Shown: positions 10,048 through 12,215 of the stretch, in pieces
Position numbering within the stretch: the stretch's first letter is position 1
Layout of the letters: each line of letters begins with the position of its first letter
From: Parafrankia discariae
GTDB lineage: Bacteria; Actinomycetota; Actinomycetes; Frankiales; Frankiaceae
Direction: 5' to 3'
NCBI RefSeq assembly: GCF_000373365.1
Contig: NZ_KB891102.1
Coordinates: forward strand, 203,632 to 267,631
Length of the DNA stretch: 64,000 nucleotides
Program-made: the position numbers and the translations under genes
The notes under the pieces: model-generated
Databases searched by the model: none
What the model was told of the DNA's origin: nothing
The model's input: only the letters and a program-made list of their open reading frames with translations

Positions 10048-10956
10048 TTAGCCGCCCGGGGCCGGCCCGGGGACGGCCGGGGCCGGAGCGGGCAGCGACA
10101 GCGCCGGAGCTGCCGGGGCGGGGACGGCCGGGGCCGGCAGCGCCGGAGCTGCCGGGGCGGGGGCACCGGCGGGCGGCGCCGAGACGCCGGGCGGATGGAG
10201 GCCCGCCGGGCCCGTCGCGGGCGCCGCGGGCGCCGCGGGCGGGCTGTTCGCGTGCGCGTAGACGATCAGGTTGCTCAGATAGTGCTTCGTGTCCTCGTCG
10301 AACGCCCCGCCGCAGGTGATCAGCCGCAGCTCCGGCCGGTTCACCGGTCCGTAGACGCTGTCGGTCGGGAAGGCCTTCTTCGACGCGTCCTCCGTGCGGT
10401 CGACCGTGAACGTCGTGAGCAGCCCGGTCGGCGCGGAGACCTCGATCTGGTCCCCGGCACGCAACGCCCGCAGCCGGTAGAAGACGGCCGGCCCGGAGGT
10501 CGAGTCGTAGTGGCCGACCAGCACCGACGGACCGAGCGCGCCGGGCGCCGGGCCCCGGTCGTACCAGCCGACCTCCTGCCACTTCTTCGGCACGGCCAGC
10601 GAGCCGTCGGCGTTCAGCCCGAGCCGGACGATCGCCGCGTCCACTCCGATCGCCGGGATCCGTACCCGCGTCGGGTCCGTGACCACGACCGGGGGGAGCG
10701 TCGGCACCGGCGTGGCAGCGGCCGAGCCGCCGAGCGCTCCTGGTGTGCCCGGCGCCCCTGACTTGCCCGGCGCGCCGGCCTGACCGATCGCGCCGCCGAG
10801 GCCGCCGAGGTCGACCCGCTCGGTGTTCGAGGGCGGGGCGGGGTCGGACTCGGTCAGCCGGAAACCACTTCCGACGATCAGCACCGCGCCCGCGACGAGC
10901 AGCAGGCGGGAGAACGTCATACGCACTGGCGACCGCTCCGTCGCTCCGAGCTTCAC
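10048..10956 (-). CDS. Class E/F-like sortase
   Basis: 302 residues. One N-terminal membrane helix (LLLVAGAVLIVGSGF) precedes a Gly/Ala linker, the sortase barrel (~residues 90-235), and a long Ala/Pro repeat tail (PAPAAPALPAPA). The catalytic His is in VGHYDST (His149) and the Cys in LITCGG (Cys215). The usual Arg (HYRDN in class F members I recall) appears as HYLSN, so the third residue may be missing or displaced. GTG start chosen because GGAG lies at the right distance. It is divergent from the secreted Asp/Lys-rich gene, a plausible substrate. Confidence 0.82.
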   Translation of the reverse strand: MKLGATERSPVRMTFSRLLLVAGAVLIVGSGFRLTESDPAPPSNTERVDLGGLGGAIGQAGAPGKSGAPGTPGALGGSAAATPVPTLPPVVVTDPTRVRIPAIGVDAAIVRLGLNADGSLAVPKKWQEVGWYDRGPAPGALGPSVLVGHYDSTSGPAVFYRLRALRAGDQIEVSAPTGLLTTFTVDRTEDASKKAFPTDSVYGPVNRPELRLITCGGAFDEDTKHYLSNLIVYAHANSPPAAPAAPATGPAGLHPPGVSAPPAGAPAPAAPALPAPAVPAPAAPALSLPAPAPAVPGPAPGG

Positions 10957-11247
10957 GACTGTCTCCGTCCAGCGACCTTCCACCGACACCGACCCATCAG
11001 TAACTACACAAGGTGATGGTATCGAGCCCAAGAGAGAGCGGAGCGTAGCCGCGCGTCGCGTCGCACAACGCGAACGACCCACGCCGGGACCACATCCAGC
11101 AAGGAGGGGCGAGGCGGTCGCGCGGCGCAGCTCAGCCCATGTCCCGCAATGGATGCCGGTCTCGTGCCGGTCGCGGCCGCGGCCCGTTCGGACCCGTCGC
11201 ACCACGCCGTCTCGCTGCGTCCCATCCCGACCACTCCTCGCTATGGT

Positions 11248-11262
11248 GTCACTCGCAGTGAC
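11248..11262 (+). promoter_or_regulatory. Operator-like inverted repeat
   Basis: GTCACT-CGC-AGTGAC, a perfect 6-bp dyad 34 bases upstream of the start of the secreted Asp/Lys-rich gene and within the divergent region shared with the sortase gene. The position suits a regulator site. No regulator can be assigned. Confidence 0.35.
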
Positions 11263-11295
11263 GAGGCAATAACCATGCGTGAGAGAGGGGACCAG

Positions 11296-11811
11296 ATGAG
11301 GAAGGGAATGGGACGGAGAGCCGCGCTTCTCGCCATGTCGAGCGCGGCAACCGTCATCGTCACCTTCGGACCCGGGCTGACGGCCGCGCACGCCGACATC
11401 TTCGATGACAAGGGTCGGTGCGACGACAAGAAGTCCGAGGAGTGGGACATCTTCGGCGACAAGAACGACAGGGACAAGGACGCCGTCAAGGACGACAAGG
11501 ACCACGAAGGCGACAAGGAAGCCCGTGCCTTCGTCGACGACAGGGACGGGGACAAGGACAGAGACAGGGACAAGGACGACGACTGGTTCGACGACAAGGA
11601 CAAGGACAGGGACAGGGACTGCCCGGTCGGCGTCGTCGCCGGTGTCGGTGTCGGCGTCGGCGTCGGCGCGGCCCCGGTCGGCGGCGCCGCCGCGGGCGGT
11701 GGCGGTACCGCGGACGGCGGCAACTCGCCGCTGCTGCCGATCGCCGGAGCCGGTCTCGGCGCCATCCTGATCGGCGCGGGCATGCGCCGCCGCGGCCACG
11801 GATCGATCTGA
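11296..11811 (+). CDS. Secreted Asp/Lys-rich protein with C-terminal sorting-signal-like tail
   Basis: 171 residues. A signal peptide (residues 1-33, cleavage after AHA) is followed by a ~75-residue low-complexity region built of alternating Asp, Lys and Arg (34-108). Then comes a Gly/Val stretch, and the C-terminus LPIAG (147-151) plus a hydrophobic helix and RRR. That arrangement resembles an LPxTG-type cell-wall sorting signal. ATG 11296 was chosen because GAGGGG lies just upstream; ATG 11275 is an alternative. The charged region could bind cations or the wall; this is inference. It lies divergent from the sortase gene. Confidence 0.75.
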   Translation: MRKGMGRRAALLAMSSAATVIVTFGPGLTAAHADIFDDKGRCDDKKSEEWDIFGDKNDRDKDAVKDDKDHEGDKEARAFVDDRDGDKDRDRDKDDDWFDDKDKDRDRDCPVGVVAGVGVGVGVGAAPVGGAAAGGGGTADGGNSPLLPIAGAGLGAILIGAGMRRRGHGSI

Positions 11812-12073: not shown

Positions 12074-12092
12074 CGCATGAGCGGGCCTGTTC

Positions 12093-12143
12093 CGAAGTGA
12101 GTTGACTCAGCGGCCTACGGAGAGGCTGAGCCAACTCACTTCG
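12093..12143. repeat. Palindromic repeat, CGAAGTGAG family (copy 1)
   Basis: Inverted repeat with 19-bp arms and one mismatch: CGAAGTGAGTTGACTCAGC against GCTGAGCCAACTCACTTCG. It shares the CGAAGTGAG tips with the copy at 27922-27980. Confidence 0.7.
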
Positions 12144-12164
12144 AGGGTGTCACCGCCCCCGGAC

Positions 12165-12215
12165 CGAAGCGAGTTGCCCCACCAGCGCGTAGAACAGCTC
12201 AGACAACTCACTTCG
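12165..12215. repeat. Palindromic repeat, CGAAGTGAG family (degenerate copy 2)
   Basis: CGAAGCGAGTTG at the left and CAACTCACTTCG at the right form a 12-bp stem with one G-T pair. The centre has decayed. It sits 21 bases from copy 1, between tRNA-Pro and the 3' end of der. Confidence 0.6.

Follow-up and report, generated by a model that had tools for sequence, protein, structure and literature searches.

A gene pair in Parafrankia discariae (genome 7.9 Mb, in 194 contigs) raises the question of what class F sortases, which alone among the sortase classes have been described in papers up to 2026 as being without known function (PMC6998099, PMC13251363), recognize in their substrates. In a 64,000-nucleotide stretch of this genome, referred to here as the window, a sortase gene on the reverse strand (10048-10956) stands head-to-head with a forward-strand gene (11296-11811) for a small protein with a hydrophobic C-terminus. 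A sequence-only reading of the window had described a divergent sortase and small surface-type protein, and both open reading frames were confirmed at these positions; a tRNA-Pro gene and then der follow the pair. We favor, at a probability of about three in four, the interpretation that the locus pairs a class F sortase with a substrate dedicated to it, and that this substrate carries a sorting signal of the GVxTG type in which, as elsewhere in Frankiaceae, Ala takes the place of Thr.

The sortase belongs to class F and has Asn at the catalytic Arg position

The sortase gene encodes 302 amino acids from a GTG codon or 290 amino acids from an ATG at 10920 (MTFSRLLL), the likelier start given its conservation in relatives. 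A hydrophobic N-terminal membrane anchor precedes the sortase domain (residues ∼94-238), which is followed by an Ala/Pro-rich C-terminal tail of ∼60 residues that the sequence-only reading had also pointed out and that is missing in the Protofrankia copies. The enzyme had been called class E/F-like, and this assignment can be sharpened to class F: the NF033748 (class F sortase) model matches over its full length with 193.1 bits (E 2.1e-57, cut-off 166), versus only 20 bits for the class E model NF033747, below its cut-off of 160. The PF04203 match scores 86 bits (cut-off 26.6). In the nearest named relative, Parafrankia soli, the sortase domain is 94% identical.

An AlphaFold (AF2) model of the domain (pLDDT 82.7) shows the predicted sortase β-barrel fold with the active-site His and Cys, and resembles sortases of classes A, C and E, with VIA Z values of 17.3 to SrtA (the best) and 16.9 to SrtE. 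A phmmer search of the window sortase against PDB sequences gave no match at 0.001, and a profile search gave 4d70 (E 0.014) as its sole match. The catalytic residues His149 (LVGHYDS, 10510-10512 on the reverse strand) and Cys215 (LITCGG, 10312-10314, same strand) are invariant in 70 class F sequences, the invariance of Cys215 being partly a product of selection because the locus search pattern included that residue. Equally invariant in the 70 sequences is Asn229 (10270-10272, reverse strand), which stands where other sortases have their catalytic Arg and aligns with the Arg of the class E motif SRLIVFA. The Arg-to-Asn change has previously been reported for actinobacterial class F enzymes (PMC6998099). 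The window sortase is a predicted transpeptidase.

The genome contains three sortases, two of class F and one of class E (G000 contig C118). The second class F sortase (L064 6818-8343, G000 contig C127) and its own partner form a tandem; this partner ends PVGGIDTGAGGTA...RRR and reads GGIDTGAGGT at the motif. Elsewhere the genome encodes a protein of 454 residues whose tail has a canonical LPFTG (L083 4863-6227, G000 contig C140); a sortase is absent from the 11 kb read around it.

The partner is a predicted secreted protein with a charged core and a C-terminal helix

The partner gene encodes 171 amino acids ending SPLLPIAGAGLGAILIGAGMRRRGHGSI. Residues 1-33 (MRKGMGRRAALLAMSSAATVIVTFGPGLTAAHA, 11296-11394) read as a signal peptide, and the N-terminus is conserved in homologs. 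The core (residues 34-108, 11395-11619) is ∼42% Asp/Glu and ∼25% Lys/Arg and has two Cys near its ends; a Cys and Gly/Val linker (residues 109-128, 11620-11679) connects it to the proposed sorting motif, GGAAAGGGGTA (residues 129-139, 11680-11712). The literal LPIAG lies further on, at residues 147-151 (11734-11748), where we take it to begin the membrane helix; the remainder of the helix plus RRR occupies residues 152-166 (11749-11793). The earlier description of a signal-peptide protein rich in Asp, Lys and Arg and ending LPIAG-hydrophobic-RRR is thus accurate as to content. The core is D/K-rich in genera g1, g5 and g6 and rich in Gln/Gly/Ser or Thr/Ala/Ser instead in Protofrankia, so a hydrophilic low-complexity stalk, and not charge itself, seems to be what matters. 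Where the core is charged, our guess is that it most likely forms a surface layer that is hydrated or binds cations.

Ahead of the partner gene, a block (GCTATGGTGTCACTCGCAGTGA, 11240-11262, forward strand) that lies ∼50 bases before the start codon and holds GTCACTCGCAGTGAC at 11248-11262 is strongly conserved across Frankiaceae genera. A dyad operator was considered here and rejected, as the symmetry (GTCACTCGCAGTGAY) is kept in two genera only, g1 and g5 (Parafrankia and Frankia); the dyad is mostly absent in Pseudofrankia and Protofrankia, which makes a promoter or leader (5′ UTR) element the likelier interpretation of the block. Downstream of the tRNA-Pro gene, two adjacent 50-base palindromes (CGAAGTGAGTTG...CAACTCACTTCG) occupy 12080-12215. 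Stretches of these palindromes reappear at roughly a dozen sites in the genome with 77-84% identity, and they therefore look like dispersed hairpin repeats.

The divergent pair is conserved across Frankiaceae

Conservation was surveyed in 58 genomes, 35 from Frankiaceae and 23 from other families of the class. The search found the small partner protein in 31 genomes, all of them Frankiaceae (genera g1, g2, g5 and g6), and found no homolog in the 23 genomes of other families, whereas class F sortases are far more widespread in the same set. When the loci were read, the divergent pair was adjacent in 27 of the 35 Frankiaceae genomes, over five genus-level groups. These include a diverged pair in genus g4 (G008) and a pair in G012 that the search had missed, probably owing to low complexity, and whose downstream frame also resembles der. 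Among the exceptions, five genomes are limited by contig ends (G027, G030, G033, G034 and G020), G007 (63% complete) shows no pair, and G011 has neither a class F sortase nor a partner. In G028 the partner contig matches that of its relative G010 for 1,125 bases and then stops, and the sortase begins another contig, an ambiguous arrangement that may reflect a broken assembly or a real split.

Every case of a partner without a sortase is explained by a contig end, G028 aside as ambiguous. The sequence-only reading had regarded a dedicated pair as likely, and had taken conservation of the partner in genomes lacking the sortase as the observation that would speak against it; no such conservation was found among the 35 Frankiaceae. 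Since the genes are head-to-head in most genomes and the exceptions are mostly contig ends, gene order and co-occurrence make a dedicated sortase-partner pair well supported.

A Gly-rich motif upstream of the helix is the probable sorting signal

Two motifs are conserved in the partner tails within Frankiaceae, GGVxAGGGG[MT]A and [LIAT]P[LIV]AG. At the first, the partners align as GGVxAGGGG; the window copy, GGAAAGGGG, is without the Val (GGAAAG), and the partner of G016 has lost the AG at this place. PxAG is conserved as well as GVxAG (Ala in 29 of 30), and because the two are equally conserved within Frankiaceae the choice between them rests on a wider comparison and on one further protein. 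That protein is a multicopper oxidase of Protofrankia, unlinked to a sortase, whose tail reads GGVPAGEGG[TV]A-helix-RRR without PxAG. The wider comparison covers the neighbors of class F sortases across Actinomycetes. Their helix is preceded, at a distance of 10-20 residues, by G-[VPMIA]-x-[TA]-G-x-G-[GS], a pattern first seen on scanning flanks and then in 80 named loci. It is also present in most flanks of the best class F matches drawn class-wide and chosen irrespective of Frankia. The form common to class F partners elsewhere, GGVx[T/A]GxGG[T/M], sits ∼15 residues upstream of PxAG, and the window motif is the equivalent of GGVDTGxGGTA, with a predicted cut between A133 and G134.

The NCBIfam model NF058571 (GVDTG sorting domain, GVDTG_CTERM) describes such a signal. 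The window partner matches it with 17.4 bits (E 0.004) as a single protein, short of the cut-off of 29, and ranks first genome-wide at 19.8 bits (E 0.009), again below the curated cut-off; the Frankiaceae partners in general fall below it. The match covers profile positions 2-37 of 44 and so takes in the motif-containing end of the profile, continuing into the helix and basic residues. The genome has 19 weak matches to the model, three of which reach the motif end, and two of these three adjoin the genome's only two class F sortases. Over the 58 genomes, counting matches at E up to 0.02, 34 of 42 motif-bearing matches lie <3 kb from a class F sortase, as compared to 0 of 19 matches confined to the helix (Fisher 7e-10). 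One apparent exception to the linkage is G140, where a match spans the motif coordinates in the absence of a class F sortase; a pattern scan there did not find the motif.

Further comparisons point in the same direction. Outside Frankiaceae, 46 of 75 secreted, tail-anchored open reading frames in class F flanks carry the motif, as compared to 0 of 29 in 461 kb of control DNA, a count biased by the choice of flanks for similarity to the Frankiaceae sortase and by a pattern drawn up after some such flanks had been seen. Across 197 genomes sampled class-wide, a class F sortase is found in 114, and it is found in every one of the 51 that have a match above the NF058571 cut-off. Ten class F neighbors from elsewhere, matched to this model, gave E < 0.001 in eight cases and exceeded the curated cut-off in six. 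An hhalign comparison of the Frankiaceae tails with those of other class F partners gave a probability of 97.2% and an E-value of 2.8e-11, which should be read cautiously because the tails are Gly/Ala-rich and the scores inflated. Judged from these alignments and linkages, the partner tag is probably a Gly-rich GVxTG-type signal with Ala for Thr and not LPIAG, and the GVx[T/A]G of the partners suggests what class F sortases may recognize.

Proteins with related tails occur in other settings. A class F sortase may be what displays the Protofrankia oxidase (loci L114, L116, L118 and L122) on the wall. In G050 (L079 5806-7209) and Planotetraspora (L162 1550-2800), a class F sortase adjoins a protein whose C-terminal helix and basic residues look similar (..FNALWVALGLFTLVSAAVAVKRIIPKR); it is perhaps a partner of a further type.

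The Thr/Ala state follows the descent of the enzyme

Ala precedes Gly in all aligned Frankiaceae partners, at the position where NF058571 has Thr. The same replacement recurs in the partners of Saccharopolyspora, Actinomadura and a few others. The sequence-only reading had called Ala in place of Thr unusual, which holds for the GVxTG motif rather than for LPIAG, with these recurrences. On the sortase tree the Thr/Ala state requires 6 changes, as compared to a mean of 18.4 for shuffled labels, and 5 versus 9.7 when Frankiaceae are left out, so the state tracks enzyme descent. The Frankiaceae pair enzymes, taken as grouped rows, fall on one side of a branch near Actinomadura and Planotetraspora, with modest support because the domain is short. 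A strict pairing of GHYDS with Ala was rejected: all 16 Tyr enzymes have an Ala partner, yet so do 10 Val enzymes, and Tyr is therefore not required.

Proposed mechanism and alternative explanations

We propose that the partner would be exported via its signal peptide and held in the membrane by the C-terminal helix and RRR. Cys215 of the sortase would then cut the Gly-rich GGAAA/GGGGTA between Ala133 and Gly134, by analogy with the T/G cut in LPxTG and GVDTG, and join the new Ala end to a peptidoglycan precursor. The product would be an acidic polyampholyte of ∼100 residues displayed on the hyphal wall.

The main competitor, which we consider improbable, builds on the motif picked out in the sequence-only reading: LPIAG would be an LPxTG variant in which Ala stands for Thr, and the neighboring sortase would cut it between Ala150 and Gly151. 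LPxAG substrates exist for SrtA of Staphylococcus aureus, so Ala is not unheard of at this position, and among the Frankiaceae partners the Pro is invariant, the Ala is present in 29 of 30 and the Gly in 30 of 30. Against this, the first position can be L, I, A or T, the partner of G020 reads APLVG, and the motif is absent both from class F partners outside Frankiaceae and from the Protofrankia oxidase, which has the GVxAG signal. Its placement is also atypical. A canonical signal is L-P-x-T-G followed by a helix of ∼15-20 residues; here Ala replaces Thr, PxAG lies at the start of the helix and only 12 hydrophobic residues separate G151 from RRR. The identification of LPIAG as the sorting motif is thus probably wrong.

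Less probable still is that the partner simply sits in the membrane by its tail, next to a sortase that is inactive or has another target. Asn in place of the catalytic Arg would fit an inactive enzyme, but this change is general in actinobacterial class F sortases (PMC6998099) and His and Cys are kept; moreover, a plain tail anchor would not readily account for the conserved one-to-one linkage or for a motif kept ahead of the helix. We give very little weight to anchoring by one of the other sortases, either the housekeeping class E enzyme or the second class F enzyme. Three sortases do coexist in this genome, and the LPFTG-tailed protein indicates that LPxTG-type substrates are present too; the second class F sortase, however, has its own tandem partner with GGIDTGAGGT, and a class F sortase is present in every genome with a match above the GVDTG cut-off. 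A dedicated class F enzyme and substrate with a GVxTG-type signal remains the reading that best accommodates these observations.

Discussion

Class F sortases, their Arg-to-Asn change and the NF058571 GVDTG model were already known; among the papers searched, none relevant to the GVDTG motif was found. The new elements are a systematic association between class F sortases and partners bearing GVx[T/A]G, and the Ala version of this motif in Frankiaceae. The linkage data provide a candidate class F motif and candidate substrates in many genomes, making class F recognition testable with peptides, and the Frankiaceae pair, with its naturally occurring change from Thr to Ala where the cut is predicted, should be useful for work on specificity. 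It also adds a charged candidate wall protein from Frankiaceae, among whose members are nitrogen-fixing symbionts of plants. On balance, we lean toward regarding actinobacterial class F as a distinct system. Each enzyme, with Asn for Arg, would act on a substrate of its own; the signal of that substrate, G-[VPMIA]-x-[TA]-G-x-G-[GS], would lie back from the membrane and mostly lack a Pro-x-Thr core. In Frankiaceae the cut site would have changed to Ala in step with the enzyme.

Deletion of all four class F sortases of Actinoplanes missouriensis caused no phenotypic change (PMC13251363), and the biological role may therefore be subtle. In that species AMIS_11010 and AMIS_36440 adjoin srtF1 and srtF4 and were suggested by the authors as possible substrates; this 2026 study set the class F neighbors aside because no pentapeptide motif was found (PMC13251363). 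By their published description, both proteins share with the Frankiaceae partner a signal peptide, a C-terminal helix, a basic end and a class F neighbor, and differ from it in the reported lack of a pentapeptide motif. Other Micromonosporaceae have GAPxTGGGGT or KGPATGGGGT at the motif place, which the published pattern list would miss. A loose parallel comes from Actinoplanes, whose disordered wall protein SspA strengthens sporangia and is anchored by a class E sortase (PMC13293333, PMC13251363).

As compared to other NF033748 class F sortases, the window enzyme shares the above-cut-off match, the His and Cys, and Asn for Arg; it belongs to a Frankiaceae branch with GHYDS, whereas the others have GHVDS, and its gene is head-to-head with that of the partner, an arrangement that is tandem elsewhere. 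The partner resembles proteins carrying the NF058571 domain in its class F linkage and in having the motif placed 10-20 residues ahead of a helix with a basic end, and departs from them in having Ala for both Thr and Val. Characterized sortase signals have been described with a PXT core, and that of class E as LAXTG (PMC5148588); the same paper predicts five class F sortases in Streptomyces coelicolor. Like the LPxTG substrates of class A and the LAxTG substrates of class E, such as the Streptomyces chaplins, class F partners combine a signal peptide, a helix, a basic end and a pentapeptide ending in Gly; unlike them, they have G-[VPMIA]-x-[TA]-G as the pentapeptide and a Gly-rich stretch between it and the helix.
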